Shown here: one piece after another, positions 21,751-61,194 of the stretch | How the letters are laid out: every line of letters begins with the position of its first letter | Numbering within the stretch: position 1 is the first letter of the stretch | Virus record (IMG/VR): IMGVR_UViG_3300010403_000705 | Coordinates: 186,001 to 250,000 of that record | Direction: 5' to 3' (one strand) | Length of the DNA: 64,000 bases | Source: a virus | The notes under the pieces: generated by a model | What the model was told of the DNA's origin: nothing | Databases searched by the model: none | Seen by the model: the letters and a program-made list of their open reading frames with translations, nothing else | Position numbers and translations under genes: made by a program

Positions 21751-22080
21751 ATGAAAAATAAAATTATTAAGACATCATATACTATGGGTGCTAGTGTATT
21801 TATAATTAAAGTGTTTCCAGAACTTGAGATAATACAACTCCCTGATATATATGCTAATTCTTCAGATATAACACATAGATTATATAGTAAAAACATAAAT
21901 TTCTTCTTTCTAACAACATTATCAAAACAAGAATTACAACGAGCTTTCTATTCGTTTAATAGTAATATGTTGGCATTGAAATTTCCTAGTTCTTATTTGA
22001 TTATGCCTCTTAATATGATAGATTTATTAGAAATTCTTAAAGAGATAGAGAGATTAAAAAATTTGAAAGCATTTTGGTAA
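21751..22080 (+). CDS. Small protein with KAFW C-terminal tail
   Basis: This 109-residue protein is the first gene after the strong promoter. No domain is recognised. The C-terminal helix (DLLEILKEIERLKNLKAFW) ends in the M/L-K-A-F-W tail shared by many small proteins here. The rest is a mixed beta/alpha sequence without a signal peptide. Confidence 0.65.
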   Translation: MKNKIIKTSYTMGASVFIIKVFPELEIIQLPDIYANSSDITHRLYSKNINFFFLTTLSKQELQRAFYSFNSNMLALKFPSSYLIMPLNMIDLLEILKEIERLKNLKAFW

Positions 22081-22084
22081 ATTT

Positions 22085-22690
22085 ATGATTAATAAAAACT
22101 CAGAATTAACGGGCGGAGAATTATATGATCCGCCTAATGAATATTACAGAAATTTCTTTAAAAAATTCGAAGAAATTGAAACATTAGAAGTACATAAATG
22201 GAAGCCTGTTCATATCTTATCTTACTTCTGTAAGAAGTATAAAGATCATTATAATGTTAATTATCAATTCAAGTTTAATACCTCATCGCCATCAAAATGT
22301 TTTGAAATTTTTCAGATAAAAAAATTGGCAATGCATTTAACAGCCAGTCCTGTTTTGTTGAAAGAATATATAGATTGGATATTTATTGATAAAATAATAA
22401 AAGCAAAAAGAAAATTTACATCCATTTCTTTTATAACTAATGAAACAACAGTCAAAGAATATAAATTTAATGTTTTATTATCAGATAAGAAAAATGCTAA
22501 TATTAACAGGTCAACTTTGTTATCCAATGAATATAAAACAGTATTTGCCCAACTAAACTTCCCAGCTAATACATATGGTGATTTGGCTTTTATATCACAA
22601 ATGCCTGATATGCCTATTGAATTAGTTAAAGCATTTACAATGCTAGAAAGCATGGGATTTGATAAAAATATATTAAAAAAAATAGTATGA
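22085..22690 (+). CDS. Hypothetical protein in replication operon
   Basis: This is a 201-residue basic protein, mostly helical, with a Lys-rich middle (DKIIKAKRKF). It starts four bases after the KAFW gene and its stop overlaps the next ATG. It lacks the hydrophobic tail. Being in an operon with the helicase loader and helicase suggests a replication or recombination accessory role, but no family could be recognised. Confidence 0.6.
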   Translation: MINKNSELTGGELYDPPNEYYRNFFKKFEEIETLEVHKWKPVHILSYFCKKYKDHYNVNYQFKFNTSSPSKCFEIFQIKKLAMHLTASPVLLKEYIDWIFIDKIIKAKRKFTSISFITNETTVKEYKFNVLLSDKKNANINRSTLLSNEYKTVFAQLNFPANTYGDLAFISQMPDMPIELVKAFTMLESMGFDKNILKKIV

Positions 22691-23067
22691 TGTTATTTAA
22701 AGTTGATAAAAAGATGATGGATGATTTTAATGGAATATCACCCAATAAATTGTTAGATATAATAGGGATTCCATGGACTATGATGTCTGCTGAACCCAAC
22801 TCAATTGAAAAGGATATCATTTCAATACTGAAATTTCAATATAACCATCTGATAATAGTAAAGGGAGGACAAATCCAATATGCTAAAACAACATCAATAG
22901 ATTTTAGTAGAGAGATCGAAACAGATAAGTTAGTAGGTTTCTATATCGACAATTATGATTTGAACCAAACGAACTATTTGTGTTGCATTGTTTTATCATA
23001 CATAAATGATTATGACGAATTAATCAAAACAATGATACGACACGCAAATATGAAAGCATTTTTATGA
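22687..23067 (+). CDS. Small protein with KAFL C-terminal tail
   Basis: This 126-residue protein has ATGA overlaps at both ends. No domain is recognised. The last segment DELIKTMIRHANMKAFL has the acidic cap, amphipathic basic helix and M-K-A-F-L end typical of the tail family. The order of segments resembles the gene at 23333, so the two may be distant paralogues. Confidence 0.65.
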   Translation: MMLFKVDKKMMDDFNGISPNKLLDIIGIPWTMMSAEPNSIEKDIISILKFQYNHLIIVKGGQIQYAKTTSIDFSREIETDKLVGFYIDNYDLNQTNYLCCIVLSYINDYDELIKTMIRHANMKAFL

Positions 23068-23336
23068 GAATTATGAAAAATTATTTTAATAATTTGATAA
23101 ATTTAATATTAAAAAATGAGCCTATTGATATTGAAATTAAGCATGTTAAAAAAGCCTTGAAGAGATATAAAAATGAACTAATTGATATAGAAATAAGCTG
23201 GGACAATTCTGATCAAATTTGTTGTATCGATTGCATGTTCCCGGAAAGAGTTGATTTATTAAAAAAGATTGAGCGAGTTGAATTTCAATTAAATCGTTTG
23301 ATTTATAAAAAAAATAAGCGTAAACAAAATCTATGA
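23064..23336 (+). CDS. Small hypothetical basic protein
   Basis: This 90-residue helical protein carries a CCIDC cluster and a strongly basic end (KKNKRKQNL). It overlaps both neighbours by four bases (ATGA). The CxxC pair plus basic residues could bind a metal or nucleic acid, but only one such pair is present. Function unknown. Confidence 0.6.
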   Translation: MRIMKNYFNNLINLILKNEPIDIEIKHVKKALKRYKNELIDIEISWDNSDQICCIDCMFPERVDLLKKIERVEFQLNRLIYKKNKRKQNL

Positions 23337-23725
23337 ATCAGTATATAGAGTTGGAAACTTCTAATATTTTTTTGGGAATTGAACATAAAATAGATATGGC
23401 TTTAATTAAAGAAGGATGCCGTATTTTTAATATACCATATATAGGTGGCGGAATATTTTTCGTACCACAAGAAAAATTATCCTCCATTATTGTATCTACA
23501 ATTGATCTACAAATTAAAAATATCTCAAACACTAAAGATGAGATAGATGCTTTTAAGCAACAAATAGAAAAACAACTTTATGGTAGAGATCATCTTATTA
23601 TATATACTAGACTTAATAAGTATCACCCAAGATATGTATATTATAATGCTGTTGCTATCGCCTCTTCCAACGTTAATGACTTCAAAAAAGTAATGAGAAT
23701 TCACAAAATGAAAGCGTTTTTATGA
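23333..23725 (+). CDS. Small protein with KAFL tail carrying a piece copied from the loader gene
   Basis: This is a 130-residue protein. Residues 47-64 (EKLSSIIVSTIDLQIKNI) match residues 22-39 of the helicase-loader gene at 24083 at 16 of 18 positions, and the DNA is likewise nearly identical, so part of one gene was copied into the other in frame. The C-terminus DFKKVMRIHKMKAFL is a clear tail-family end. Otherwise unknown. Confidence 0.65.
   Translation: MNQYIELETSNIFLGIEHKIDMALIKEGCRIFNIPYIGGGIFFVPQEKLSSIIVSTIDLQIKNISNTKDEIDAFKQQIEKQLYGRDHLIIYTRLNKYHPRYVYYNAVAIASSNVNDFKKVMRIHKMKAFL
23471..23524 (+). repeat. 54-bp direct repeat, copy 1 (partner 24146-24199)
   Basis: Copy 1 of a near-identical direct repeat of about 54 bp, with about six differences that I counted by eye. 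It lies within the 23333 gene and is read in the same frame as copy 2 in the helicase-loader gene 675 bp downstream. Confidence 0.8.
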
Positions 23726-24123
23726 TACCACAAAAAGGACAACATATTAAATGTATAATGCGAAATAACTTGATTATTGATGGAATTGTTGAATCTTGGT
23801 CTGGTGCTCAATCCGTATTACGATCTATAGATAATACTGGATTCTCTATCATTCAACATACCGATCAAGATATAGTAGCAATAAAAATAATTATAAAGGA
23901 TTCGGTAAAAATAAAAAATGAGTTAGAAGAAAAATTTGAAGAAGTCCATCAACTGCCTAGTAGTAATGAATTAAGAATTAAAAATATGGCAGAGTTGAAA
24001 ACTATGATGGCAGAACAAGAAAAACAAATTATTTCAGAAAAAATTAAAAACCATCATATTAAAGATATTAAAAGGGTAATATATGAGCAACCTAGATTTT
24101 TCCAGAAGTCGCGCACTAAATAA
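23722..24123 (+). CDS. Hypothetical protein, possible Sm-like N-terminus
   Basis: This 133-residue protein overlaps its upstream neighbour by ATGA and the loader gene by 41 bases. The first 60 residues run GQHIKCIMRNNLIIDGIVES, then a loop, then GFSIIQHTDQDIVAIKII. That is a small beta barrel order resembling Sm/LSm proteins, weaker than at 19752. The C-terminal half is a charged helix. RNA binding is speculative. Confidence 0.5.
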   Translation: MIPQKGQHIKCIMRNNLIIDGIVESWSGAQSVLRSIDNTGFSIIQHTDQDIVAIKIIIKDSVKIKNELEEKFEEVHQLPSSNELRIKNMAELKTMMAEQEKQIISEKIKNHHIKDIKRVIYEQPRFFQKSRTK

Positions 24124-24787
24124 CATTCCACAAAAAAAATTGGAAGAGAAATTATCCTCTATTATTGCATCTACGAATGATCTACAAATTAAAAATATAA
24201 AATTAATTGCTATTAATAGGTATGCAGAAAGTAATATTCCAATAGAGTATTGGGATTTGAAAATGGAAAAAGATTTTCATGGTGATTTGAGATTATTAAA
24301 TAAGTATAAAGAATATATAAATGACTTAAAAAAATCTTATATTGAAGGAGTTTCCATTTGTTTTGCTGGTGCACATGGACTGGGCAAAACAATGACTGTT
24401 TCTTGTATTTTAAAAAAAGCCTGTAATAAAAATTTTAGTTGTTTATACACCACCCTAAGTGATATTGTAACTGTATTAACTCAATCTTCTGGAGAAGACA
24501 AATATTTATCCAAGAGAGAATTATCTTTAGTTGATTTTTTGGTAATTGATGAATTTGATTCTAGGTTTATGTCTTCTGACAATGCGGCTGATCTATATGC
24601 TAGAAGTTTAGAGGGAGTATTTAGAACACGAAGTCAAAACAAGTTACCTACATTAATGTGTACTAATAGTCCTAATATCATAGAGTCTTTTAATGGATCA
24701 TTAAAGGTATCTCTTGATAGTTTGATGAAAGGTTATTTAAAGACTTTTCCCGTGTTTGGAGAGGATTTTAGAAAGAAAAAAATATGA
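24083..24787 (+). CDS. DnaC/IstB-like AAA+ helicase loader
   Basis: This is a 234-residue AAA+ ATPase. Walker A is GAHGLGKT at 96-103, Walker B is FLVIDEFDS at 152-160, and LMCTNSPN is the sensor 1 region. Residues 1-85 form a helical N-terminal domain of the kind that binds the replicative helicase. The gene ends four bases into the DnaB-like gene, so loader and helicase are translated together. Ribosome site AAAAGGG lies before the ATG. Residues 22-39 are shared with the 23333 protein. Confidence 0.8.
   Translation: MSNLDFSRSRALNNIPQKKLEEKLSSIIASTNDLQIKNIKLIAINRYAESNIPIEYWDLKMEKDFHGDLRLLNKYKEYINDLKKSYIEGVSICFAGAHGLGKTMTVSCILKKACNKNFSCLYTTLSDIVTVLTQSSGEDKYLSKRELSLVDFLVIDEFDSRFMSSDNAADLYARSLEGVFRTRSQNKLPTLMCTNSPNIIESFNGSLKVSLDSLMKGYLKTFPVFGEDFRKKKI
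24146..24199 (+). repeat. 54-bp direct repeat, copy 2 (partner 23471-23524)
   Basis: Copy 2, inside the helicase-loader coding sequence. The resemblance extends slightly upstream (a shared Pro-Gln pair) after a short insertion of about 12 bases, which supports real duplication rather than chance. Confidence 0.8.
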
Positions 24788-26196: not shown

Positions 26197-26229
26197 AAAT
26201 TACCAAATTAAAAACATATTGGCAAAAAT

Positions 26230-26421
26230 ATGAAATCAGATGAAGAAGTTATTGCTGAAGCAAGCAGAATAGAATACGAAGAAAAAACTGGTAAGTTGTT
26301 TATTGTTTTTGAGGTGATTAATGAAAAATTAAAACAAGACATCAAAAAAAATTGGACAAAAGATATTGAATATAAAATAATAGACAAATGTTTAGTTTTA
26401 AATTTAAATGAAGATGAATGA
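26230..26421 (+). CDS. Small hypothetical acidic protein
   Basis: This 63-residue charged protein lies downstream of the replicative helicase and overlaps the next gene by 14 bases. No domain is recognised; it looks like a helix followed by two strands. Confidence 0.5.
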   Translation: MKSDEEVIAEASRIEYEEKTGKLFIVFEVINEKLKQDIKKNWTKDIEYKIIDKCLVLNLNEDE

Positions 26422-26758
26422 AAACATATTTGACAATATTAAAGCAATTTGCGCTAATTATCCTAATATTTCTCTATCCATTCAAGATTGGTGCTCTATA
26501 ATGAAAGATAAAAATTCTCTTTGGAAAATGGTAGATATAGTAACAACCAAAGATCTTCTAATGAATGGAAACTATGGTATTTTATTTGGATGTAGAATAA
26601 TTGTTAGCAGGGTTATTCCAGAGGGAAATTTTAGAGTATCAATGAAAATAGATCCTATTAATCCAAGCAAGAAATTAGAAGATTGGTCTCCACAAATGAA
26701 TCTAAAAATCAATTTACATGATATAGAAAGATATCTAAAATTAGTAGCATTTTGGTGA
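26408..26758 (+). CDS. Small protein with VAFW C-terminal tail
   Basis: This 116-residue protein has no recognised domain. Its end, LHDIERYLKLVAFW, is a tail-family variant with Val in place of Lys. DNA at its stop (GTAGCATTTTGGTGA) closely matches the other AFW genes. The next gene starts three bases later. Confidence 0.65.
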   Translation: MKMNENIFDNIKAICANYPNISLSIQDWCSIMKDKNSLWKMVDIVTTKDLLMNGNYGILFGCRIIVSRVIPEGNFRVSMKIDPINPSKKLEDWSPQMNLKINLHDIERYLKLVAFW

Positions 26759-26761
26759 AAA

Positions 26762-26950
26762 ATGAATACGACTGTCAATGAATTACCACATTTTATAAAT
26801 GATAAGTTACATAGGCAAGATGGTCCAGCTCTAGTAAATTATCTTTGTCGCAAGGGAGTAAATTATTGGTTTTTTAATGGACTGATAATACCAAACTGTT
26901 CAACACAGGAATATTTTAATAAAGCAATTAAGTTATTAGTTTTCTTGTAA
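26762..26950 (+). CDS. Small HRxDGPA-repeat protein with VFL tail
   Basis: This is a 62-residue protein. KLHRQDGPALVNY followed by NYWFFNGL is the short HR-x-DGPA...W-x-x-NG repeat seen in many small phage and bacterial proteins of unknown, possibly protein-binding role. The C-terminus KAIKLLVFL fits the hydrophobic tail family in weakened form. Confidence 0.6.
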   Translation: MNTTVNELPHFINDKLHRQDGPALVNYLCRKGVNYWFFNGLIIPNCSTQEYFNKAIKLLVFL

Positions 26951-33437: not shown

Positions 33438-34244
33438 ATGAGATTATCGTCAAACGAAGCATTTGCTTCAAATAATTTTATTACTCTAAAAAACCAAGAT
33501 TGGTTAGAAAAACAAAGAGTTGCTGGTAGAGTAGTTGCTGATGTTCTTTCGTTATTAGAAGCACAGGTAAAGAATAACACTAATTTATCATTAAATGAAT
33601 TAAATAAAATTGCTGAAGAATTTATTTTGGATAATAGATGCCAACTTACATTTAAAGGATACAAAGGTTTTCCAGCTGGAGTCTGTATTTCTGTTAATAA
33701 ACAATTGGTACATGGAATACCGTCTGATTATCATTTACAATCAGGGGATATAGTTAGTTTTGATTTAGGAGCTACTTTTGAAGGAGCAATTGCTGATGCA
33801 GCTATAACATGTATATATGGAAAACCTAAATCAGATATGCATATTATGTTAATAGAAGCTACTAAAGATTGTTTAATGAATGGCATTAATACTATCAAGA
33901 TTGGTAAAAAATTAGGATGTATTGGAGATGCTATTAGTAAATGTAATAAGAAATATGGTTTTGGATTAATAACTAAATATGGTGGTCATGGTTTAGATTG
34001 GAATAAACCCCACGCCCCACCATTTGTAGAAAATAAATCAAGTAGTGAGCAGGGTATAAGAATTCAATCCGGATTAACTATTGCTATAGAACCAATGTTG
34101 ATAATAGGTGACACTTATACTTATGTAGACAAAGATGGTTGGACAGTTTATGGTTCTGGTATTAGTGCTCATTTCGAACATTCAATTTTTATTCATGAAA
34201 ACAAAGTAGAGATACTTACACAAAGGAATTGTGACATCTACTAA
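33438..34244 (+). CDS. map: Methionine aminopeptidase, type I
   Basis: This 268-residue enzyme removes the initiator Met from new proteins. The metal ligands are present: Asp109 and Asp120 in SFDLGATFEGAIAD, His in GGHGLDWNKPH, Glu in LTIAIEPML and Glu in SAHFEHSIF. Length and motif spacing match type I enzymes. Together with IF-1 and RF2 it makes three translation or maturation factors in this window. The Fpg-like enzyme, which needs an exposed Pro2, would be a natural substrate. Confidence 0.9.
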   Translation: MRLSSNEAFASNNFITLKNQDWLEKQRVAGRVVADVLSLLEAQVKNNTNLSLNELNKIAEEFILDNRCQLTFKGYKGFPAGVCISVNKQLVHGIPSDYHLQSGDIVSFDLGATFEGAIADAAITCIYGKPKSDMHIMLIEATKDCLMNGINTIKIGKKLGCIGDAISKCNKKYGFGLITKYGGHGLDWNKPHAPPFVENKSSSEQGIRIQSGLTIAIEPMLIIGDTYTYVDKDGWTVYGSGISAHFEHSIFIHENKVEILTQRNCDIY

Positions 34245-34578
34245 TTTAGTATTTATTTCAAAAAATACCAATAAAGGTATAAAGCTCTTTAGATGTCTAT
34301 ATTGTAATGATAATATAAAAGCTCATTTTTTATCAGAAACTAGATGTTATTTTTACTGTAAAATCTGTAAATGTCAGTTCATAAACCAACACGATATTTT
34401 AGTTGAAATAGATATTAAAACAAAAATTAATAGCAAATTTTATACTGTGAAATTAGATCTAGCAAAGAATCGAACTAATTTAGTTTCAGGTCACATAATA
34501 TATTCATGTGATGAGTGTGTATTGGTTACCCCTCAAAATATAAACAATAAAATACGCATGTGGTTATTAATGCAGTAA
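34231..34578 (+). CDS. Zinc-ribbon protein with GTG start
   Basis: This 115-residue protein begins at GTG 34231, inside the end of map, with AAAGGA four bases upstream. FRCLYCNDN...YFYCKICKCQF is a C-x2-C...C-x2-C zinc ribbon, and a further YSCDEC lies near the end. It may bind nucleic acid or a polymerase. No family name can be given. Confidence 0.6.
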   Translation: MTSTNLVFISKNTNKGIKLFRCLYCNDNIKAHFLSETRCYFYCKICKCQFINQHDILVEIDIKTKINSKFYTVKLDLAKNRTNLVSGHIIYSCDECVLVTPQNINNKIRMWLLMQ

Positions 34579-34591
34579 AATGGAGAATAGA

Positions 34592-35104
34592 ATGAAAAAA
34601 TACTTATCAATGTTAATATTTTTATTTATTGGGTGTACGACTAGCGAAACAAACGTAAATGCACCTAATGATGAAGATGCTGGGTCTGTGCCTCCATGTA
34701 TTTCTGATATTGTAGAATGTCAACCACATCAATGTGGTGAGATACTAGATAACTGTGGAAATATTTTCAACTGTTATTGTGATTCGTTAAAATATGATAG
34801 AGAATGTGGTTCACAAGGTTTTGATCTTAATGGAGAGATAGTATCTATGGATAAAAATGTCTGTGGATTTGGATGTTTTTCTTTACCGTTAAATAGTGAA
34901 GATATTAATTGTGAAGATTTAATTTTTCCTAATAGTTCTCATGCTGATAATATTTACAAATGGTGGTGTCCAGATGATAAAAGTGGACATGTGTTTAGTC
35001 CCAACAATTACACTTCTAAATCTGGAACTTCTTGTAGCAGTGATGGTACCATCACTAGTCATTTTGGGTTACTGGGCAATGTTTTTTGCTGTAACAACAA
35101 ATAA
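34592..35104 (+). CDS. Cys-rich lipoprotein
   Basis: This is a 170-residue lipoprotein. ATG 34592 is chosen over 34580 because GGAG lies six bases before it and gives a normal signal peptide (KKYLSMLIFLFIGC, lipobox ending in Cys). The mature part is acidic then Cys-rich. PHQCGEILDNCGNIFNCYC resembles the short Cys motif common in secreted proteins of myxobacteria and relatives. It is expected to be anchored to the cell envelope and may alter the host surface, for example for superinfection exclusion. Confidence 0.65.
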   Translation: MKKYLSMLIFLFIGCTTSETNVNAPNDEDAGSVPPCISDIVECQPHQCGEILDNCGNIFNCYCDSLKYDRECGSQGFDLNGEIVSMDKNVCGFGCFSLPLNSEDINCEDLIFPNSSHADNIYKWWCPDDKSGHVFSPNNYTSKSGTSCSSDGTITSHFGLLGNVFCCNNK

Positions 35105-35109
35105 AATAT

Positions 35110-35430
35110 ATGTGTAATAAAAATGATAACCAACAACATCAAAATAATATATTGATAAATGAAGAATTATCTAAACATTCATGGAGAACTATAAGGAAAT
35201 TTGAAGAATTATTTCCGTGTTTAAATCCATTACATATTATTGAAGTGCAGAATAAAGAGTATCTTGATGAACAAAAAATTATTTCTTTAAAAATGAAGCT
35301 AGCTAAGAATCAAGGAACAGAATATAAAAAAATTCCTGAAACATTTACGACAGAACATATTCGTTACGAATCTGTCGAAGAATTTTGGCAAAGATGGAAT
35401 CGTTTCAAAAAAGTAAAATCATTTATATAA
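35110..35430 (+). CDS. Small protein with KSFI C-terminal tail
   Basis: This is a 106-residue protein of unknown function. The C-terminus YESVEEFWQRWNRFKKVKSFI shows the acidic cap, basic amphipathic helix and K-S-F-I end of the tail family. It is downstream of the lipoprotein by five bases but has no signal peptide, so it is cytoplasmic. Confidence 0.65.
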   Translation: MCNKNDNQQHQNNILINEELSKHSWRTIRKFEELFPCLNPLHIIEVQNKEYLDEQKIISLKMKLAKNQGTEYKKIPETFTTEHIRYESVEEFWQRWNRFKKVKSFI

Positions 35431-35498
35431 AAATAAGATGTTGTATTGCTTACTATTACACGCATATTTTTTAAATATATTACAAAATTAAAGTTTTT

Positions 35499-35669
35499 AT
35501 GAAAATACAATTTGATGATAAATCTTATATAGAATGTCGTAAGTTAAATGACAAAATAATTGTTATAGTTTCAGCCAAAGATTACAATAATCCGCTAAAA
35601 AAAATTACTAACTCTGTAGAATTAAATATTGAAGAATTCAGAAAATTAATTTCAGATGTCCAGACGTAA
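35499..35669 (+). CDS. 56-aa small protein
   Basis: ATG at 35499 opens a 56-codon frame to TAA at 35669, overlapping the start of the next gene by 14 bases as several gene pairs do here. The translation begins MKIQFDDKSYIECRK and ends EEFRKLISDVQT. No homology is recognised. It fills most of an otherwise empty gap. Confidence 0.45.
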   Translation: MKIQFDDKSYIECRKLNDKIIVIVSAKDYNNPLKKITNSVELNIEEFRKLISDVQT

Positions 35670-36141
35670 GTTATTTTTACATAATGACGAGCTAATTAAT
35701 CAAAAAGCTGAAGAAAGAGCGGAAGAACTATGGAATAAATTAATTATTGATTATCCTTTAAAAGAATCTTCTTTATTAAATAATCTGTTTAAAAATATTA
35801 AACATATTACATATGCTTATATTGCTGGATTTACAGATTTCCACAAAAAATTTGATGAAAATTTTTGTATAACTGCTATTCATAAAACACAAAATAGCTG
35901 GGCAGCCTCATTAGATATTAATCAATGTTTGAATAAAAGAAGCTGGCTATTAAATAATGCATGTAATAATAAGTGGCGCAGTAAATTTACTATTTATTAT
36001 ATTGATCATCAGTTTGATATAGATTATCCATGTCCTCATGGTGATGATTATAAGGATGTATATTTAATGTTTTTTACTGAAGACGAAAAACAAACCGCTC
36101 AAATGTTAGAAAAATTTAATAGATTAAAGGCATTTGTATGA
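35656..36141 (+). CDS. Small protein with KAFV C-terminal tail
   Basis: This is a 161-residue protein without recognised domain. The end EDEKQTAQMLEKFNRLKAFV is a clear member of the tail family. Its stop overlaps the ATG of the P-loop kinase gene (ATGA). Confidence 0.65.
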   Translation: MSRRKLFLHNDELINQKAEERAEELWNKLIIDYPLKESSLLNNLFKNIKHITYAYIAGFTDFHKKFDENFCITAIHKTQNSWAASLDINQCLNKRSWLLNNACNNKWRSKFTIYYIDHQFDIDYPCPHGDDYKDVYLMFFTEDEKQTAQMLEKFNRLKAFV

Positions 36142-36689
36142 AGATTTATTTTATTGGGTCACATTCAACAGGAAAAACTACATGTGCAAGATACGTTTCT
36201 GAGACGTATAAAATACCTATGATTACTGAAGTGGCACGCATGATTTTATCAGAAAAAGAATTACATTTAGATTCTTTGCGTACTAATTTGGATATAGTAG
36301 ATGACTATCAATCAAAAATATTTAATAGACAGATTGAACAAGAAAGTAAATATAATAGTTTTGTATCTGATAGAAGTTTTGATTGTCTGGCTTATGCTGC
36401 GCAGCATGCTAGAATTTTGCCATCTCTCTTAAAATCAGCTGAGTTAAAAAATTATATAGATAATTTAAAATCATATGACTCTTTCATTTTTTTTATTAGA
36501 CCATCGAAGGCAACTTTAAAAGATGATGGCATAAGAGAGAATTTAACCTGGGAGGGTATAATTTCTATAGATGCTCAAGTTAAATTCTTATGTGAAATGT
36601 TTGAATTAAGATATTTTCAAATTAACACTGATAATATGCAAGAAAGAGTTAAATTAGTAAATTCAGTATTATCACTATATAGAATATAA
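36138..36689 (+). CDS. P-loop kinase/ATPase, NadR-like
   Basis: This 183-residue protein has Walker A GSHSTGKTT at residues 7-15, then ITEVARMI and VSDRSFDCLAYA. These are the features of the AAA_28/NadR kinase-like group, small P-loop kinases that phosphorylate nucleosides or NAD precursors. The lid region has DDGIREN. The substrate cannot be told from sequence; ribosylnicotinamide or a deoxynucleoside are both possible. Confidence 0.7.
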   Translation: MKIYFIGSHSTGKTTCARYVSETYKIPMITEVARMILSEKELHLDSLRTNLDIVDDYQSKIFNRQIEQESKYNSFVSDRSFDCLAYAAQHARILPSLLKSAELKNYIDNLKSYDSFIFFIRPSKATLKDDGIRENLTWEGIISIDAQVKFLCEMFELRYFQINTDNMQERVKLVNSVLSLYRI

Positions 36690-44140: not shown

Positions 44141-44833
44141 ATGAATTTAGATAATTTATTAAACGATGCTATTAAAAATCTATTTGGCATAAACCCTTCC
44201 TTATCTGTAAAAAAAGTCAATCCAAAGAACTTATTAAATACTTCCATAAATGAACATGGCGAGGGAACTAGTTCTTTCGGTAGTAAAGTATTATCTAAAG
44301 CTAGGTCAGACATAGGAGTACATGAAGACTTAGGTAAGAATGATGGTAAAAGAATAAGAGAGTATTTTAAATATTTTAAAATGGGTGGAGGACAGGATTG
44401 GTGTGCGGCGGCAGTATCTGCATGGTTAATAGAAGCTGGCGGCGGACCAATTTCTGGAGCTGTTGGTGCCAGAAATGTTGGCGCTCAATTTGCACAAGCA
44501 GGAAGGTGGGTAGCAAGAGATAAAATATCTGCAAATCACATGATTCCAGGTAATATAGTCGTCTGGAGTCGAGGAGGTCCGGATTCTTGGAAAGGTCATA
44601 TAGGTGTTATAGAATCTTTTGATGGTCGTAATTCTTTCACATCTATCGAAGGAAACTCTGGACCACGCTCTGATGCAGTGGTTGTAAATACTCATTCCAT
44701 TAAAGACGCTAATTTATTAGGAGTAGGAATATTGTCTGATTATGTTCCAAGCTTTTCTAAAAAAAGTTTTGATAAAATTGATAAAATGGCGAATATATAT
44801 TACCAAAAAGCTTTTAAACTTATTAATTTTTGA
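44141..44833 (+). CDS. CHAP/NlpC-like cell-wall amidase, probable endolysin
   Basis: This is a 230-residue protein. The fold starts near residue 51 (SKARSDIGVHEDLGKNDG). DWCAAAVSAW gives the catalytic Cys88, GHIGVIE gives His153, and SIEGN gives the polar third residue near 170-172, as in CHAP-type peptidoglycan amidases. Residues 1-45 are a polar N-terminal segment; no cell-wall-binding domain or signal peptide is seen. It stands alone between a terminator and a convergent gene, as a late lysis gene could. A virion-associated murein hydrolase is an alternative. Confidence 0.7.
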   Translation: MNLDNLLNDAIKNLFGINPSLSVKKVNPKNLLNTSINEHGEGTSSFGSKVLSKARSDIGVHEDLGKNDGKRIREYFKYFKMGGGQDWCAAAVSAWLIEAGGGPISGAVGARNVGAQFAQAGRWVARDKISANHMIPGNIVVWSRGGPDSWKGHIGVIESFDGRNSFTSIEGNSGPRSDAVVVNTHSIKDANLLGVGILSDYVPSFSKKSFDKIDKMANIYYQKAFKLINF

Positions 44834-48764: not shown

Positions 48765-49004
48765 TTACCAAAAAGTCTTCATTTTTAGCATCCTTACAAA
48801 TTCATCTTCTCGGTAGCCTTTATTATCAAAAGATATCAAATATTCCGTTAGATTATTTGATGTTGTTATGAAGAATATGGTTAACTTAGGGGTCTTAAAA
48901 GTAAAAGATTTTACACTTCCCACTTCATGAATACTTTTTATATTACTTTCGGATAAATCACCAATGAATTTTTTTATGTCTGTATGAATGTCATTAATTT
49001 CCAT
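48765..49004 (-). CDS. Small protein with KTFW C-terminal tail
   Basis: This 79-residue protein starts directly after the IF-1 stop (TAG-ATG). It ends DEFVRMLKMKTFW, a tail-family end. The rest is a helix plus beta strands. Its 3' end is five bases from the convergent gene at 48759. Confidence 0.65.
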   Translation of the reverse strand: MEINDIHTDIKKFIGDLSESNIKSIHEVGSVKSFTFKTPKLTIFFITTSNNLTEYLISFDNKGYREDEFVRMLKMKTFW

Positions 49005-50542: not shown

Positions 50543-50824
50543 TCACCAAAATGCTTTCATCTTTTTTATTTTTTCTATTAGTAGTTTCATTTCATCCAAA
50601 TGGCTTGTTATTTTACGTTTATCCTCCATTTCTTCTATTATCGAAAGATCTGAATTTTTTAATTGTTCTATAAGAATACAAAATTCTTGATAATCCTCAA
50701 TTATATTCGTAATGTCATTGGGTGTTCCTACAACTAATTTTTTCTTAGCCATCTCATGAAATGACACTACAACATTTAGTATATGTTTATACGGATTCTT
50801 GATTATTTTTGTCTTTTTTGTCAT
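50543..50824 (-). CDS. Small protein with KAFW C-terminal tail
   Basis: This is a 93-residue, mostly helical Lys-rich protein. Its start overlaps the SET gene stop (ATGA). It ends DEMKLLIEKIKKMKAFW, a textbook tail-family end. It seems to be little more than coiled helices plus the tail. Confidence 0.65.
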   Translation of the reverse strand: MTKKTKIIKNPYKHILNVVVSFHEMAKKKLVVGTPNDITNIIEDYQEFCILIEQLKNSDLSIIEEMEDKRKITSHLDEMKLLIEKIKKMKAFW

Positions 50825-51297: not shown

Positions 51298-51507
51298 TTA
51301 CCAAAATGCTTTCATATTAAAAAAAGAACTGATTTCCTTGCCTACAAAAATTGCACCATCTTTTTCTATAGAAATTAAATTATTTTTTTCAAAATTAAAC
51401 ATAATGCCACCACTTGTTATAGCAAGGGTATTTTTTTGTTTATTTTCTGCTATATCAAAATCAGAATCACATAAATTGACATATTTTATTAACTCACTCA
51501 ATATCAT
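51298..51507 (-). CDS. Small protein with KAFW C-terminal tail
   Basis: This is a 69-residue protein, nearly all beta strand plus the tail (KEISSFFNMKAFW). Its stop codon directly precedes the SET gene ATG. It is one of the shortest tail-family members, which helps show that the tail is a separable module. Confidence 0.65.
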   Translation of the reverse strand: MILSELIKYVNLCDSDFDIAENKQKNTLAITSGGIMFNFEKNNLISIEKDGAIFVGKEISSFFNMKAFW

Positions 51508-54482: not shown

Positions 54483-54507
54483 TATATAAGAAATAATTTC
54501 TTATATA
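54483..54507. terminator. Bidirectional hairpin between convergent genes
   Basis: TATATAAGAAA at 54483-54493 and its exact complement TTTCTTATATA at 54497-54507 flank TAA. It sits between the ends of convergent genes and covers the stop of the leftward one. The arms are AT-rich, and it probably serves as terminator in both directions. Confidence 0.5.
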
Positions 54508-55019
54508 AATGCAGTCAATTTTCTTATTGCTTGTAACCATCTGACGATATCTATTAAGACGTCTATAGTAATAGAATTTCCATATTTGAATTGATTAAAA
54601 TATGAATTCCAATTACATTTACTAAATCTAGAATCTTTAGTAGAATCTAATTTATAAAGCATTTTACAATTTCCTCCAGCTTGTGTATGTGTTTTTTCTT
54701 CATAGATACACATGTTCATTTTTAAATCGGACATGTCCGATTTAGTATAATCTGACTTGGTGATTTTAATCAAAAAATCACCAACTTTGATTGTGTTAGA
54801 TTTTAGAATGAAATCTTTTATCTTGTCTTTTTTGACGTCTGTTAAATCAACCATACCTTTATCTTTTGATTTAATTTTCTGTTTAATTTCAGATTCTGCT
54901 GGAATCCATGTCTCTTGATATACATCATCCGATGATGTATCATGATACTGTTGATCGACTAGACTCTTAATTAAATTATAGTATTCTTCAGTAGTAAAAG
55001 ATGTAGATCGTTTTATCAT
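54501..55019 (-). CDS. Tail-family protein encoded by palindrome-rich DNA
   Basis: This is a 172-residue protein of unknown function, Lys/Ser/Asp-rich. It ends DIVRWLQAIRKLTAFI, a tail-family variant with Thr for Lys and final Ile. The coding DNA holds three long perfect inverted repeats (54723, 54757, 54920) in addition to the terminal one, which is not seen in other genes here. Confidence 0.6.
   Translation of the reverse strand: MIKRSTSFTTEEYYNLIKSLVDQQYHDTSSDDVYQETWIPAESEIKQKIKSKDKGMVDLTDVKKDKIKDFILKSNTIKVGDFLIKITKSDYTKSDMSDLKMNMCIYEEKTHTQAGGNCKMLYKLDSTKDSRFSKCNWNSYFNQFKYGNSITIDVLIDIVRWLQAIRKLTAFI
54723..54744. other. Perfect 22-bp palindrome
   Basis: TAAATCGGACA is followed at once by TGTCCGATTTA (no loop). 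It lies within the leftward gene at 54501 and is a candidate dyad protein-binding site or mRNA hairpin. Confidence 0.5.
54757..54784. other. Perfect 11-bp stem with 6-nt loop
   Basis: TTGGTGATTTT at 54757-54767 pairs with AAAATCACCAA at 54774-54784. It lies 12 bp from the previous palindrome, inside the same coding region. Confidence 0.5.
54920..54940. other. Perfect 21-bp palindrome with one-base centre
   Basis: ATACATCATC-C-GATGATGTAT, near the 5' end of the leftward gene at 54501. It is the third perfect inverted repeat within this coding region. Confidence 0.5.
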
Positions 55020-55718: not shown

Positions 55719-55741
55719 GATTTTTGCGATTATGGGTGATT

Positions 55742-56314
55742 GTGCATAATATATCAAAATTTAATAAACTTATTGACTTTATGAAGATCAATACAAATTG
55801 TGTATTTTGTGGTAATAAAACACCCTTTCTTTTTAAAGAATATATGCACGAAAATGATGAACATCTTACTTATAAGTTAGATAAAGATAATAATGTAAAT
55901 CTACAAATTAGTCAATCTACTTTAAGAAATTTACAAGCTGAAAAATCTGCTTTTGTTGGCGAAGATTTTCCTAATTATTTTGTGAATTGTAATTCACAAA
56001 ATAATAGTTACTCGATCAGTTTACGCACAGATCCTATGAAAACTTGTCCGTTATTTTTTAGTGATTCTGGAACTATTGCTCCTTTTGAATTTGATTTTTT
56101 AAGATTTGAAATAATAAAAAATCAAAATGATTCTACTATTATTGTGATTAATAATTATTTTCATAGAAAAACTTTTTTAATTGACATATCCACAAGCGAG
56201 ACTCATTCTTCCATGAGACGCAGTGATTTTGTTGAGTTACCATTAATAGATTTTGATTTTACTAATAAAGAAAAAATATCACAAAAAATTAAAACTTTAA
56301 TCACATTTTTATAA
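55742..56314 (+). CDS. CxxC tail-family protein, tandem member 1
   Basis: This 190-residue protein is the first of nine neighbouring genes with one N-terminal CxxC motif (here NCVFCGNK) and a hydrophobic tail (EKISQKIKTLITFL). The GTG at 55742 is chosen because it leaves about 20 residues before CxxC as in its relatives; a TTG at 55724 is possible. The middle is beta-rich and poorly conserved. Only one strong CxxC is present, so zinc might be bound by a second pair further on or between subunits. Function unknown. Confidence 0.6.
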   Translation: MHNISKFNKLIDFMKINTNCVFCGNKTPFLFKEYMHENDEHLTYKLDKDNNVNLQISQSTLRNLQAEKSAFVGEDFPNYFVNCNSQNNSYSISLRTDPMKTCPLFFSDSGTIAPFEFDFLRFEIIKNQNDSTIIVINNYFHRKTFLIDISTSETHSSMRRSDFVELPLIDFDFTNKEKISQKIKTLITFL

Positions 56315-56895
56315 TGTTTTATAAAATACAAGACTTACTAGAGTATAAAAAATATTGTTCTATTTGTGATTACCCACTTTTGGCTATATTAAAAGATCGT
56401 AGTAGTGGAATACCAAATATAAATGTGAAGTTAAACAAAAATATATTCAAATTCAGATTACAATATACTTCAGCAAGTGATTACTTAAATGAAATTTGCA
56501 TTTTAAATGTAGATACTAATGAGTTAAGCATTCTCAACAAGGATAATGATTTATTAATCATACCGGTGGTAGAAAGAATTTTTGGATATGCTTGTGTGGC
56601 AGTAGAACTGCATTGCGTAAATAATAAATGCAAATATAATTATTACGTATGTACCACTTTCTTAAAACCAATTGCAAATAAGGATATTATAATTATTAAT
56701 CCAATTCTTATTGATATAGATTGCTATAATATCTCACATTTTTGGATTCAAAATGATTATTTAAATAAAATTACTAATATTTTTTCTACCTCTAAGCCGC
56801 AAAATAAACCCATTTCGGTTCCTTTATTGGAAATCGACCCCAATAACAAAAATAAAATTTTTAATAGAATTAAAACGATTGTTAATTTTTCTTGA
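56314..56895 (+). CDS. CxxC tail-family protein, tandem member 2
   Basis: This 193-residue protein overlaps the previous stop by one base. YCSICDYPL near residue 15, then LHCVNNKCKYNYYVC, suggest a four-Cys zinc site made from distant pairs. It ends IFNRIKTIVNFS, tail of the N/L-F-S type. Same family as its neighbours by layout rather than by high identity. Confidence 0.65.
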   Translation: MFYKIQDLLEYKKYCSICDYPLLAILKDRSSGIPNINVKLNKNIFKFRLQYTSASDYLNEICILNVDTNELSILNKDNDLLIIPVVERIFGYACVAVELHCVNNKCKYNYYVCTTFLKPIANKDIIIINPILIDIDCYNISHFWIQNDYLNKITNIFSTSKPQNKPISVPLLEIDPNNKNKIFNRIKTIVNFS

Positions 56896-56912
56896 AAAGA
56901 AAGATACCTGTC

Positions 56913-57641
56913 ATGCAAGATTTTTTATTGTCTAATAAAGTATGTCCTATTTGTCAGAATCCATTAACCTTATTCATGAAATGGTCTAGCCATGATCTGG
57001 TTATTAATAAACTTTTTAAAGGATATGAAACAAAAGATAATACATATCAATTTAAAGAATACATTGCAGCTGCGCCAATTGCGGAAAATAATTTTCATTC
57101 TTCAGATGAAATGTTGAGAAATGTGAAAGTTCTGATGATTCTAAAATTTATTAATAATGAATGCAATTTTCAATTTAATTCTCTAATAGCAGAGAAAATG
57201 GCTAAAGAACAGGAAGAATTATTTTTTTATTATATATGTAATCCTGCCGGTATTAAACCAGATAATATGATTAATATTTATGAAGCGTGTTATTATAGAG
57301 CCACTCCTCTTATGAAATTTATTGAGGGAGATTCTAGTTTATTGAAAATAAAACAATTAGACGAAAAATATAATGTCATTAATAGTTTAGAGTCTTTTAC
57401 TATAAAAGACGAAACTACTGATTCTGAATTAAAAAAGATATATATAGTTTATTTAAATTATCTTGATGAAAAACTTTCTTTTTATTACTACACGGCTACT
57501 GCTGAACAAGAAGCGTCAGAACATTATAATCCTAATATTTTTGTGGGTGAAATTCCTATTCCCAAAAATGGATTAAATCTTGATTTAAACGCCAGAGATA
57601 AATTAATTTCTAGAATGGATTCTTGGATTCTTATGTCATAA
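56913..57641 (+). CDS. CxxC tail-family protein, tandem member 3
   Basis: This is a 242-residue protein. ATG 56913 places VCPICQNPL 11 residues in, as in the others; the TTG at 56892 is less likely. It is the longest member, and its end (DKLISRMDSWILMS) keeps the basic helix but has Met instead of the usual Phe. The middle is alpha/beta with a second Cys-containing stretch (YYICNPAG). Confidence 0.65.
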   Translation: MQDFLLSNKVCPICQNPLTLFMKWSSHDLVINKLFKGYETKDNTYQFKEYIAAAPIAENNFHSSDEMLRNVKVLMILKFINNECNFQFNSLIAEKMAKEQEELFFYYICNPAGIKPDNMINIYEACYYRATPLMKFIEGDSSLLKIKQLDEKYNVINSLESFTIKDETTDSELKKIYIVYLNYLDEKLSFYYYTATAEQEASEHYNPNIFVGEIPIPKNGLNLDLNARDKLISRMDSWILMS

Positions 57642-57714
57642 TAGACACTATTACCCATCCAGCATAGAAACCTAGAAAATTGACATCTTTCTATCGGAAT
57701 AAAAAAAAATTTAT

Positions 57715-58800
57715 ATGCAAACAATAAATCAACTATTAGAATCTTGTAAAAATAAATTGGTATTTCTGCAAAATATGATACCTATCACGCAAAATCAAAA
57801 TAGGTTAAAAGAAATAGATGATTTGGTAAGTAATAGTAATATCTGGGCTTCTCCTAAAGAAGCCGCTTCTCTAATGAAAGAACGTCAAAAAGTTTCTGAC
57901 ATATTAAAGAAATTGTCTTCTTATCAAGATCAGATTAATTTTTACATAGAGTGTCAACAGTATATGCCAGAAGAATTAATAAAAATTTCTTCACAGGTAG
58001 AAGATTTGCATAAAGATATTTCTTTGTTTGAATTTAAACAGATGATGAATGATCCTATAGATGATAGTCCAGCTATTCTTACTATTAATGCTGGTGCTGG
58101 CGGATTAGAAGCTGCCAATTGGACCAGTATGTTATTGCGTATGTATTCTAGATATGCAGATTCAAATAAGTTTAAACTAGAAATGCTAGATATGAAACCC
58201 TCAGAAGAACATGCAAGTATTTGTACTGACTGTGTTTCTATAAGAGTGGAAGGTCCGTACGCATATGGATTTTTAAAAGGTGAGGCGGGAGTTCATAGAT
58301 TAATAAGAAATTCTCCGTTCAATTCAGGAGATGCTAGGCATACTTCTTTTGCTGCCGTGGCTGTTTTACCAGATATTGAAGACAAATTATCAATTGATAT
58401 TCAAATAAATGAGAAAGATATAGAAATTACTACTATGCGCGCCTCTGGTGCAGGTGGACAAAATGTTAATAAAGTAGAAAGTGCTGTTAGATTAAAACAC
58501 ATTCCAACAGGAATTGTAATTAATTCTCGTTCTGAAAGAGATCAGCATACCAATAGAAAAATAGCTATGAAGATTCTGAAAGCAAAACTTTATGAAATAG
58601 AAATGCAAAAACAGAATAAAGAGAAAGAAAAATATTTCTCCAGCATGCAAGATAATTCTTTTGGTCATCAAATAAGGTCTTATATTTTATTTCCAACTCA
58701 GATGGTCAAAGATCATCGAACAAATTTTGAAGTAAGAGATGCGGAAAAAGTCTTAGATGGAGATATTGAAGAATTCATTATGGCTTATTTACATTCTTAA
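57715..58800 (+). CDS. prfB: Peptide chain release factor 2
   Basis: This is a 361-residue class I release factor. [12 protein letters not shown] with the GGQ at 247-249 triggers peptide release, and SPF at 200-202 is the RF2-type anticodon determinant, so UGA and UAA are read. [20 protein letters not shown] and the C-terminal [14 protein letters not shown] also match RF2. The frame is continuous; the autoregulatory +1 frameshift common in bacterial prfB is absent. It is embedded among the CxxC genes. A TTGACA at 57680 has no clear -10. Confidence 0.92.
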
Positions 58801-58805
58801 TCAAA

Positions 58806-59381
58806 ATGATAAGTAATTTTACCATCAAAGATTTTATTAATTATAATAATCCATGTTTTTGCTGCGGAAATTCAGTTTCACTAAAAATGTTTTCTAGCGC
58901 AGATGAAATTATGGGCAGTGGAATAGTCCTAATTCCTGCCGTATATCAAAATGCACTAGAAGTGGATTTGGAAATTACCTATCTTTCAACTTTAAAATTA
59001 AAAATTTATCCAAAAACTAATAAATTTATTTCTTCGAGTCATGATAGCTTGACAAAATACTTACAAGGACGTAAACTGTCTTTGATAAGCAGATGTGATG
59101 GTTGTAGTACATTCGTTAAAAGTTTGAGTTTGGAATTTAATTTGGATAGAGAATTTATAAAACCTCTTTCTATTGAAGAAGAAATGTTGTTTTTATACGA
59201 TAAAGATTTTTTATTTAGGGTTAGATCTTTATTTAAAAATAATTACAGCGAATTGCTTATTATTAAATATAAAAAACCTTCCGAAACGTTCAAATTAACA
59301 ATGCCTCTTCAGCCAAGAAGTAAATTTAAAAATACACAACAGCTTCTAAAAAAAATAAAAACTTTAATGCTTTTCTCTTAA
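58806..59381 (+). CDS. CxxC tail-family protein, tandem member 4
   Basis: This 191-residue protein starts five bases after prfB. PCFCCGNSV near residue 17, then RCDGCSTFV near 95, may form a four-Cys zinc site. It ends QQLLKKIKTLMLFS, a tail nearly identical to members 1 and 5. The middle is beta-rich. Confidence 0.65.
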   Translation: MISNFTIKDFINYNNPCFCCGNSVSLKMFSSADEIMGSGIVLIPAVYQNALEVDLEITYLSTLKLKIYPKTNKFISSSHDSLTKYLQGRKLSLISRCDGCSTFVKSLSLEFNLDREFIKPLSIEEEMLFLYDKDFLFRVRSLFKNNYSELLIIKYKKPSETFKLTMPLQPRSKFKNTQQLLKKIKTLMLFS

Positions 59382-59425
59382 ATACATTGCTTATCATAAT
59401 GGTGTCCTTGCAGAAGGAATAAATT

Positions 59426-59767
59426 ATGAATAGTTCACACAATTGTCCGATTTGTAAAACTCTTATGATGGAAGATAAATATACTTTTCCAATCCCAGAA
59501 TCAACTGATTTGATCTGTCGTCAAGATAATCATTTTTTTGTAAAAAGAATTAGCCCAGTTACCAATCAAGTTTCGGAATTGAAAATTAAACTTCAGTGCG
59601 GAGAAGAAGAGCTGTATCTTAAAATAAATTATAATAGAAATTACACTGATGTATGGGCGACCGCAAATAATTCAAAACATATTAGAATTCCATATATCTT
59701 GATGTCAGATTTTGAAGATTTTAATAAAATTAAACATAAAATAAAAACTTGCCTTCTTTTTTCTTAA
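59426..59767 (+). CDS. CxxC tail-family protein, tandem member 5
   Basis: This is a 113-residue compact member. NCPICKTLM near residue 6, then a beta-rich core with one Cys in IKLQCGEE, then NKIKHKIKTCLLFS. Ribosome site AGAAGGAATAAATT. It is about half the length of members 1-4, as if the central domain had been lost. Confidence 0.65.
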   Translation: MNSSHNCPICKTLMMEDKYTFPIPESTDLICRQDNHFFVKRISPVTNQVSELKIKLQCGEEELYLKINYNRNYTDVWATANNSKHIRIPYILMSDFEDFNKIKHKIKTCLLFS

Positions 59768-59769
59768 TT

Positions 59770-60111
59770 ATGCAAATGCCAATTAAATGCCCAATCTGTT
59801 CCGGACCCATGAATAATGATTTTCTTCCATCTTCCGGCGGAAAAGAATATCTAAGGAAGTGTTGCGAAGTAAAACTAAATCATAAAATTATTTATACTTC
59901 TTCCATAAATCATGATGAGGTGCAGCAGTTTGATCTAATATTATCACTTGATAAGTTATCAGTAGCAAGATTTGTTTGGTCACCAAATCATAAAATACTT
60001 AATGTATATAAAAATAACACTCATACAACCAATATTCCATATTTTGAACCGCAATTAAATAACTTAAAAGCTCTAAAAGACAAGTTAAAATTGTATTTAT
60101 TATTCTTATAG
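59770..60111 (+). CDS. CxxC tail-family protein, tandem member 6
   Basis: This is a 113-residue protein. ATG 59770, two bases after the previous stop, gives MQMPIKCPICSGPM. YLRKCCEVKL could supply the second Cys pair. It ends LKDKLKLYLLFL and uses a TAG stop, one of very few in the window. Closest in length and layout to member 5. Confidence 0.65.
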   Translation: MQMPIKCPICSGPMNNDFLPSSGGKEYLRKCCEVKLNHKIIYTSSINHDEVQQFDLILSLDKLSVARFVWSPNHKILNVYKNNTHTTNIPYFEPQLNNLKALKDKLKLYLLFL

Positions 60112-60131
60112 CTGATGTTATATGAAATGCC

Positions 60132-60455
60132 ATGAAAGAGTTTTCCTATTGCCCAATTTGTGCGAATAAATTAAAAAGCCGACTGTTTAAGGATAACATT
60201 AAACTTCTTTCTTGCCAGGAAGGAGTGGCACATTACATTTCTTTTAAATTGCAAGACCAACAAATGTCAAACATGACATTATACTTAGATAATTATTCGT
60301 ACTTGGAAATGGATTTTTTAAAACAAATATCTACCTATTACTATGATCCTTTAAATGGGATGGCTAAGCTGGTGATTCCTAAAATTATAGAACCGGATTT
60401 TCCGCAACTCAAAAATTTAAAAGAAAAACTATTAAAGTATGTGTTGTTTACATAA
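60132..60455 (+). CDS. CxxC tail-family protein, tandem member 7
   Basis: This is a 107-residue protein. YCPICANKL near residue 6, LLSCQEGVAHY as second Cys/His stretch, beta-rich core, and KEKLLKYVLFT at the end. Downstream 40 bases show nothing notable. Confidence 0.65.
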   Translation: MKEFSYCPICANKLKSRLFKDNIKLLSCQEGVAHYISFKLQDQQMSNMTLYLDNYSYLEMDFLKQISTYYYDPLNGMAKLVIPKIIEPDFPQLKNLKEKLLKYVLFT

Positions 60456-60497
60456 TCTTTTGGTAATTTACCAGTCTCTTGCATCTGTTGTTTTTAT

Positions 60498-60860
60498 ATG
60501 AAATGTGTGTTTTGTGATAATGATTGTGTCATACAAGCCAGAAGTAATTCCGCTTGTGAAAAGTATATGAAATTTGCGATGTTTTATCCTATTTGTAAAA
60601 TATGTCAAATATCCTATAAAGTCAACTGGTCAAAAAGAGAATATATATCTGCGATTGTTTTTATGATCAAAGATCAAGAAACTTGTCCAACTATTGTTAC
60701 TAATCATCTGATTATAGACGTACAAGAAAATTCTACCAAACTATTCGGTCGTGCCAATTTTGATAAACCTATTATTGATCTTTCTTATGCGATGGACATT
60801 CATCCAAATAATTTGTATGAACGTTTAACAAAATTAAAGAAATTAATTTTATTCTCATAA
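60498..60860 (+). CDS. CxxC tail-family protein, tandem member 8
   Basis: This is a 120-residue protein. KCVFCDNDC at the very N-terminus, then YPICKICQIS near 33-42, makes a convincing C-x2-C...C-x2-C zinc ribbon, the clearest in the family. It ends RLTKLKKLILFS. One base separates its stop from the next ATG. Confidence 0.68.
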   Translation: MKCVFCDNDCVIQARSNSACEKYMKFAMFYPICKICQISYKVNWSKREYISAIVFMIKDQETCPTIVTNHLIIDVQENSTKLFGRANFDKPIIDLSYAMDIHPNNLYERLTKLKKLILFS

Positions 60861-60861
60861 T

Positions 60862-61194
60862 ATGAATTGTTATTACTGTAAACAAAATATTGATGTTATG
60901 TCATTGTGGTCTTATAGTAAAAATACTGTATTTTGTGAAAAATGTAAAGCTTATCAGAGTTATCACCAAGGATATTTATATAATATTTGTTTTATGTTCG
61001 ATGAAAATAAATCAGTCTCTGATCAGTCTACGAAAAAAGGTTACTGGATCGTAATCAATGTTGTGAGAAATCAATTCTCATTAGAGTTAAATAACTCAAT
61101 AATTATTAAGGATCTGCCCGAAGCTGATAAAATCACTCCTGCTAATGTACAAGAAACACTGTATAGACTATTGAGGTTAAAAGCGTATCTTTAA
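60862..61194 (+). CDS. CxxC tail-family protein, tandem member 9
   Basis: This is a 110-residue protein. NCYYCKQNI and FCEKCKAYQSYH form a full four-Cys zinc ribbon. It ends TLYRLLRLKAYL, intermediate between the LLFS tails of this array and the KAFW/KAFL tails elsewhere, which supports treating all of them as one group. Last gene before the composition change. Confidence 0.68.
   Translation: MNCYYCKQNIDVMSLWSYSKNTVFCEKCKAYQSYHQGYLYNICFMFDENKSVSDQSTKKGYWIVINVVRNQFSLELNNSIIIKDLPEADKITPANVQETLYRLLRLKAYL

Follow-up and report, generated by a model that had tools for sequence, protein, structure and literature searches.

A common C-terminal tail on unlike small proteins

The window analyzed here, a stretch of 64,000 nucleotides, spans bases 186,001-250,000 of the virus record IMGVR_UViG_3300010403_000705 (432,844 bases, hereafter G000), a tailed phage with genes for a terminase, a portal, a head protease fusion and a major head protein. 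Its major head protein has its nearest annotated relative in Bacillus phage G, with 53% identity, and relatives of its terminase with 65-83% identity are common in IMG/VR. The window contains 21 genes for small proteins with differing bodies that share one short C-terminal tail, consisting of an acidic stretch followed by [KR] at position -9, [LM] at -5, F at -2 and [WLSI] at -1, directly before the stop codon. The initial annotation of the window had listed 22 such genes. All of them exist and end where it had placed their stops, and 21 were recognized as tailed by a profile trained on relatives only; the gene at 56892-57641, which ends in SWILMS without F at -2 and scores -11, drops out.

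We called 592 genes in G000 with a simple script of our own over the whole record, read in stretches; gene counts are therefore approximate, and some short genes are skipped. The tail profile covers ten residues, and its held-out version was trained on three relatives only. As relatives we used G001 (3300036715_004471, 447 kb), G002 (IMGVR 3300009545_000018, 448 kb), G003 (3300028558_000791, 280 kb covered), G004 and G005 (IMGVR_UViG_3300043177_000122), which are partly fragments and several of which were covered in part (200 kb each of G004 and G005). Partial sequences of phiKZ, RaK2 and LR745208.1 were also examined, together with 400 kb of phage G (NC_023719.1) and, in the motif test described below, 400 kb of LR756502.1.

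In the G000 profile, K or R occupies -9 in 48 of 53 tails and F occupies -2 in 51 of 53, with W, L, S or I at -1; position -8 is mostly hydrophobic, L or M stands at -5, K is common at -4, and -3 is small or hydrophobic. The acidic cap described initially is borne out by the net charge of residues -22 to -11 (-0.70 with the tail, 0.01 for small proteins without it). Over the last ten residues, the net charge is +2.24 and +0.43, respectively.

The profile matches 54 of the 592 protein ends in G000, where 0.22 would be expected from 114,442 internal 10-mers, and with held-out training 53 of 592 ends versus 33 of the 114,442 internal 10-mers. The held-out scores of the 21 window tails range from 7.6 to 26.8 and are equalled by 0-19 of these internal 10-mers. 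The profile search proposed with the initial annotation thus returned matches restricted to C-termini. A profile-free count shows an excess of F at -2, with z values of 19.8 in G002, 9.4 in G000 and 5.3 in G001, and no such excess in the stretches of phage G and G004 examined. Applied out of sample, the same profile matches 110 of 671 genes in G002, 36 of 611 in G001 and 13 of 372 in G003, each with fewer than 0.4 expected, and an independent profile search in the relatives gave matches that nearly all finish at the last profile column; the relatives keep the tail at the stop. G005 has four tailed genes in its 200 kb and G004 none.

The tails extend beyond the interval noted initially: on both strands, they are spread between 2.4 and 430 kb of the record. 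None of the main structural genes, which occupy the block at 103-200 kb, was tailed in a profile scan of the whole record, and tails are very scarce at 248-345 kb.

Selection on the peptide rather than on the DNA

G000 and G001 share 348 reciprocal best pairs. The tail is present on both members in 19 of them and on one only in six, and four of these six end in recognizable or borderline tails. All 19 pairs align without gaps at the stop. Their last ten residues are 64% identical, compared with 39% for the bodies, and the comparison of synonymous with non-synonymous change suggested at the outset gave a pN of 0.23 in the tail versus 0.41 in the body, with near-equal synonymous change (0.64 and 0.68). 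Tail codons for F, K and L occur at genome frequency, and the stop codons of the tailed genes are ordinary (33 TAA, 16 TGA and 5 TAG). Near the stop, we observed an excess of A-ending codons for Ala and Ile. Because the tail is more conserved than the body at equal synonymous change and uses genome-like codons, selection acts on the peptide and not on the DNA: the tail is under selection at the amino-acid level.

A DNA-level element, such as a terminator, promoter or repeat, was accordingly rejected, the synonymous codons being at genome frequencies save for the A-ending excess. We also discarded translational coupling to the next gene, which is significantly raised in G002 only, and tailed genes with convergent neighbors exist. 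None of the three contrary outcomes foreseen initially was encountered: matches are not common inside proteins, the register at the stop is conserved in relatives, and the codons are ordinary. The proposal that unlike bodies carry a phage-specific tag, selected at the protein level, is well supported.

One peptide on many bodies

After removal of the last 22 residues, 217 tailed proteins fell into 163 body clusters, 138 of them single, with differing predicted folds. The bodies, which the initial annotation had described as differing, are thus mostly unrelated. The largest cluster is a MORN-like HRxDGPA family of 15 members, many with the end SSQEEFEKLLKLKAFW. The AlphaFold model of a MORN-like tailed protein is a beta solenoid (pLDDT 95) with a C-terminal helix at residues 96-108, and its best PDB matches in Foldseek are MORN1 (probability 1.00). 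A second tailed family was modeled with a different alpha+beta fold (pLDDT 88), with the C-terminal helix (residues 165-172) at lower confidence, and no clear fold match emerged for it. Ten tailed window proteins matched no Pfam family at E <= 0.01, ten gave only weak PHROGs matches, and a MORN-tail query found no relative in bacterial genomes. A tail gain is seen in the 348-aa protein G002_151913, which is tailed while its orthologs in G001 and G003 are untailed. The tail is modular: many unrelated proteins carry one peptide. Simple tandem duplication, already argued against in the initial annotation, fails as a full account, with bodies mostly unrelated and on both strands.

The initial remark that no recognized virion protein is tailed holds for the main structural genes but not for a few tailed bodies, which are diverged pieces of head proteins: the major capsid protein (MCP)-like G000_102111/G001_274685, G001_268755 (a 328-aa head-module protein) and G003_69467 (a protease-fusion protein). 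These pieces could be dominant-negative or capsid-binding. Since tailed genes matched MCP, protease, EF-G and tail protein, we suspected the capture of essential-gene fragments as the purpose of the tailed genes. We rejected it: at E 1e-3, such matches occur in 8 of 213 tailed versus 121 of 1495 untailed small genes, which is no excess. The EF-G-matching tailed gene is a deletion scar fused to a neighboring tail, and two other matching genes contain templated copies of 53-55 bp.

Tails in other huge phages

In LR756502.1, a distant uncultured phage of 642 kb, dozens of unlike small proteins end in a tail of their own, RDxKLxxLGI. This tail was seen in 242,429-642,428 with the pattern R[DN]xK[LI]xx[LI][GL], and the whole record contains no match to the tail of the window. 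In a de novo test for C-terminal motifs, which is profile-free and counts body clusters, RxxKL was found in 52 body clusters versus 2.6 expected in the 400 kb (Bonferroni 2e-43) and RDxK in 49 versus about 3 (Bonferroni 1e-35 or better). Only values far below 1e-3 to 1e-4 were trusted, because odd motifs also reach such Bonferroni values. Nothing comparable emerged in the parts of phiKZ, RaK2, LR745208.1 and G004, and the signals in Atu_ph07 and phage G were no more than weak. The LR756502.1 tail is found, among others, on a MORN-like protein, on a BtpA-like enzyme and on three proteins that start with apparent transmembrane helices. The MORN body class has differing ends, KLKAFW here and RDYQIKNILD in LR756502.1, and the MORN bodies of Atu_ph07 and P12053L bear no tail of such kind. 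A profile comparison of the two tails detected no homology, although their spacing looks similar.

Phage G presents a different situation. Thirty of its proteins have the common end YWKENDRYLAKIL, which bears a superficial likeness to the tail of the window, but their bodies are homologous and form one family, for which reason we rejected phage G as a third modular tail. A tandem run holds 23 members of about 200 aa. The zinc-ribbon expansion reported for phage G by Iyer et al. (PMC7824862) is part of this family, which is broader than zinc ribbons, as the tandem members share a homologous segment with known ones. In phage G, the tail of the window does not occur in the 400 kb examined, nor is there a match in the whole record. 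Because phage G demonstrates that an origin from one family is possible in general, the independence of the bodies needed testing. The G000 tail is C-terminal only, modular and private to its phage lineage.

Tailed genes of the window and further observations

Table 1. Tails in the window, with scores from the held-out profile (trained on relatives only), and two other features discussed in the text. Positions are those of the window unless another record is named.
Feature	Position	Strand	Gene and remarks	Score
VRFEKLMIFT-stop	14635..14667	+	14311-14667, 118 aa	13.2
ERLKNLKAFW-stop	22048..22080	+	21751-22080, 109 aa	25.7
IRHANMKAFL-stop	23035..23067	+	22687-23067, 126 aa	11.7
MRIHKMKAFL-stop	23693..23725	+	23333-23725, 130 aa	16.3
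ERYLKLVAFW-stop	26726..26758	+	26408-26758, 116 aa	23.8
NKAIKLLVFL-stop	26918..26950	+	26762-26950, 62 aa, MORN-like HRxDGPA body	16.8
NRFKKVKSFI-stop	35398..35430	+	35110-35430, 106 aa	15.5
EKFNRLKAFV-stop	36109..36141	+	35656-36141, 161 aa	18.3
QKLISLKAFW-stop	44800..44832	-	44800-45363, 187 aa; convergent downstream neighbor	20.5
VRMLKMKTFW-stop	48765..48797	-	48765-49004, 79 aa; convergent downstream neighbor	21.5
EKIKKMKAFW-stop	50543..50575	-	50543-50824, 93 aa, body all-helical by inspection	26.8
SSFFNMKAFW-stop	51298..51330	-	51298-51507, 69 aa	18.2
QAIRKLTAFI-stop	54501..54533	-	54501-55019, 172 aa; convergent downstream neighbor	9.1
QKIKTLITFL-stop	56282..56314	+	55724-56314, zinc ribbon	15.0
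NRIKTIVNFS-stop	56863..56895	+	56314-56895, 193 aa, zinc ribbon	7.6
KKIKTLMLFS-stop	59349..59381	+	58806-59381, 191 aa; adjoins RF2	13.7
HKIKTCLLFS-stop	59735..59767	+	59426-59767, 113 aa, zinc ribbon	10.5
DKLKLYLLFL-stop (weaker)	60079..60111	+	59749-60111	7.6
EKLLKYVLFT-stop	60423..60455	+	60132-60455, 107 aa	12.1
TKLKKLILFS-stop	60828..60860	+	60498-60860, 120 aa	13.7
YRLLRLKAYL-stop	61162..61194	+	60862-61194, 110 aa	13.9
Two adjacent ClpP genes	G000 record 66529-67113 and 67110-67709		conserved in relatives; ClpP widespread in large phages	
Phage G YWKENDRYLAKIL family	26-33 kb, 99.9 kb, 311 kb, 353.9-370.4 kb of NC_023719.1			

Two of the tailed genes contain short copied stretches. In gene 23333-23725, 55 bp (23469-23523) are 91% identical to the neighboring gene 24083-24787, and in gene 55724-56314, 53 bp (about 55928-55980) are 94% identical to the gene of a 1646-aa tail protein (record 172719-172771). 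These copies are templated insertions within fast-evolving tailed genes. The EF-G gene at record 426557-428638 sits among tailed genes. In G005, an 84-bp EF-G remnant (46287-46370), the only one found in 200 kb, is fused to a neighboring tail; many other G005 genes are broken up into successive fragments, which may reflect introns, decay or sequencing errors. A search of viral contigs with a single query found no EF-G relatives. At 34201-36357 of the G000 record, residues 40-387 of a conserved AAA+ protein form a LAGLIDADG-bearing insert with in-frame flanks, which is absent from relatives and is probably an intein.

As for the tail-poor region at 248-345 kb, the GC content rises there and at 61,200-64,000 of the window from about 0.30 to 0.36-0.52, and the coding density under table 11 falls to 0.2-0.4 at 250-280 kb. 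The region is not simply foreign, since some genes at 297-345 kb have homologs in G001; a different genetic code, an abundance of non-coding elements or a faulty assembly are possible reasons.

A probable docking peptide and its possible partners

We consider it probable that the tail works as a docking (sorting) peptide at the C-terminus, one that is specific to the lineage and binds a single shared partner. Many unrelated small accessory proteins would share one short terminal helix, the last residues of which, with the free carboxylate, would be read by a common partner, and the tailed proteins would thereby be gathered at the same place or machine. One reader of the free C-terminus best accounts for the stop-fixed register, the near-invariant F at -2 and the basic residue at -9 on unrelated bodies, from which we infer a single receptor. 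Since the tails of two distant huge phages differ, a reader encoded by the phage is more likely than a common protein of the host.

Several points weigh against a docking peptide. In the AlphaFold models, the tail is a helix running on from the body. The zinc-ribbon bodies may share a remote homology invisible to sequence search, and the body-cluster counts overstate independence because some arrayed tailed proteins are tandem paralogs. Furthermore, G004 and G005 are near relatives in their terminase and ClpP genes, yet carry few or no tails in the stretches examined. As candidate receptors we would name, in this order, a Clp-type AAA+/ClpP hub, a phage-made compartment or assembly, the capsid interior and the ribosome.

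The first of these, a specific form of the docking model that we regard as possible but rather unlikely, makes the tail a proteolysis tag or adaptor handing the proteins, or targets bound by their bodies, to Clp-type AAA+/ClpP, a role comparable to that of the F-box/PRANC ends of poxvirus ankyrin proteins. G000 encodes two ClpP proteins plus AAA+ proteins, and LR756502.1, with its own tail, also encodes ClpP. ClpX recognizes MuA-type C-termini, basic plus hydrophobic, that resemble [KR]xxKLKAF[WLI], but the tail, with an F nearly fixed at -2 and K/R at -9, is stricter than known degrons. Nor does ClpP occur only where tails do: it is also present in G004 and RaK2, without a shared tail detected in the stretches examined, and in phage G with its one-family tail, and it was not found in phiKZ and LR745208.1. 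The presence of ClpP in large phages with and without tails therefore does not discriminate.

Alternatively, the docking peptide might route proteins to a phage-made compartment, filament or membrane, for example via an amphipathic helix of the MinD/FtsA type, which we judge unlikely. The tail is indeed a basic, hydrophobic C-terminal helix, and the apparent transmembrane starts of three LR756502.1 tailed proteins would fit a membrane. The hydrophobic moment is a little higher than that of untailed ends (0.31 vs 0.26). Membrane helices, however, do not depend on an F held at -2 relative to the stop. The tubulin-like filament that the initial annotation had suggested as receptor has a real gene in the window (18352-19752), but it is not supported as a universal reader: G004, G005 and phage G also have tubulin while carrying few such tails or none, and LR756502.1, with a tail system of its own, lacks it.

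Docking to the inner capsid or a scaffold, by which accessory proteins would be loaded into the virion for injection, is more doubtful still. Each of the two lineages has its own tail, as would be expected if it were matched to its own capsid, and three tailed bodies are the diverged head-protein pieces described above. On the other hand, no main structural gene (about 103-200 kb) is tailed; the tails cluster among non-structural genes, and G004 combines a closely related head module with no tails in the 200 kb examined.

Equally doubtful is the view that nothing docks and the tail is the last structural element of one very divergent family. Phage G, with its 30 homologous proteins, and the many tandem zinc-ribbon and beta proteins among the G000 tailed genes speak for it, but MORN solenoid, alpha+beta, MCP-related and all-helical bodies among the 163 clusters cannot share one fold, and a tail was gained on the 348-aa G002 protein.

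Finally, a nascent-chain signal acting in the ribosome at termination and tied to the phage RF2 is very improbable: the untailed RF2 gene (57715-58800, with GGQ and SPF motifs) does lie inside a tail array in five phages, with 40-52% of its neighbors tailed versus 6-16% genome-wide in the three phages counted (Fisher about 1e-4 each) and homologs of gene 58806-59381 adjoining it in G001 and G002 too, but the stop use of tailed genes is ordinary and includes TAG, unread by RF2, and the RF-like gene of LR756502.1 is outside any tail array. As the arrays around RF2 are orthologous, its placement is one conserved arrangement and not five events, and we rejected the link as conserved synteny only.

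A wider principle is possible, though less likely than not: huge phages may run their own protein-addressing code, in which each lineage has a C-terminal tag of its own and encodes the reader that fits it, and which new accessory genes join by acquiring the tag. Up to 9-16% of the genes of a phage would then be delivered to one place or machine, and two codes would be visible, that of this clade (KxxKLKAF[WLSI]) and that of LR756502.1 (RDxKLxxLGI). The genes of huge phages are mostly small and of unknown function, and a common tag on at least a tenth of them groups them by destination, whatever each one does. The tag also offers a direct handle, namely the partner that binds the tail. Such a receptor, if it exists, would expose a hub of phage protein sorting, proteolysis or packaging, and if each lineage has a label of its own, large viruses would be organizing the infected cell by a new principle.

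Comparison with known systems

The literature searched gave no description of such a shared tail. MuA-type ClpX degrons resemble it in having basic residues followed by a hydrophobic C-terminus that is read with the carboxylate; they differ in having no fixed F at -2 and are not known to be common to dozens of proteins of one phage. Phage capsid-targeting sequences are known, for example, from the T4 internal proteins, where the signal is N-terminal and cleaved. Encapsulin cargo-loading peptides likewise are short terminal peptides that send unlike proteins to a shell (PMC7355545). Encapsulin and T4-type systems have few cargos per shell. The zinc-ribbon expansion of phage G (PMC7824862) similarly comes from a large related phage in which dozens of small proteins have a helix in common at the C-terminus, but there one homologous family carries another peptide, YWKENDRYLAKIL, and neither the same tail nor homologous bodies are found here.

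Poxvirus ankyrin/PRANC (F-box-like) proteins are likewise many proteins of a large DNA virus with one C-terminal module recruiting a shared machine; they differ in that the module is a longer folded domain, occurs on ankyrin-repeat bodies only and recruits a eukaryotic SCF ligase (PMC9414399, PMC4353913). The PRANC arrangement of ankyrin repeats followed by an F-box-like domain was not seen in the ten window proteins compared with Pfam. Unlike PRANC, the phage tail is a peptide of about 10-20 residues carried by many body types.

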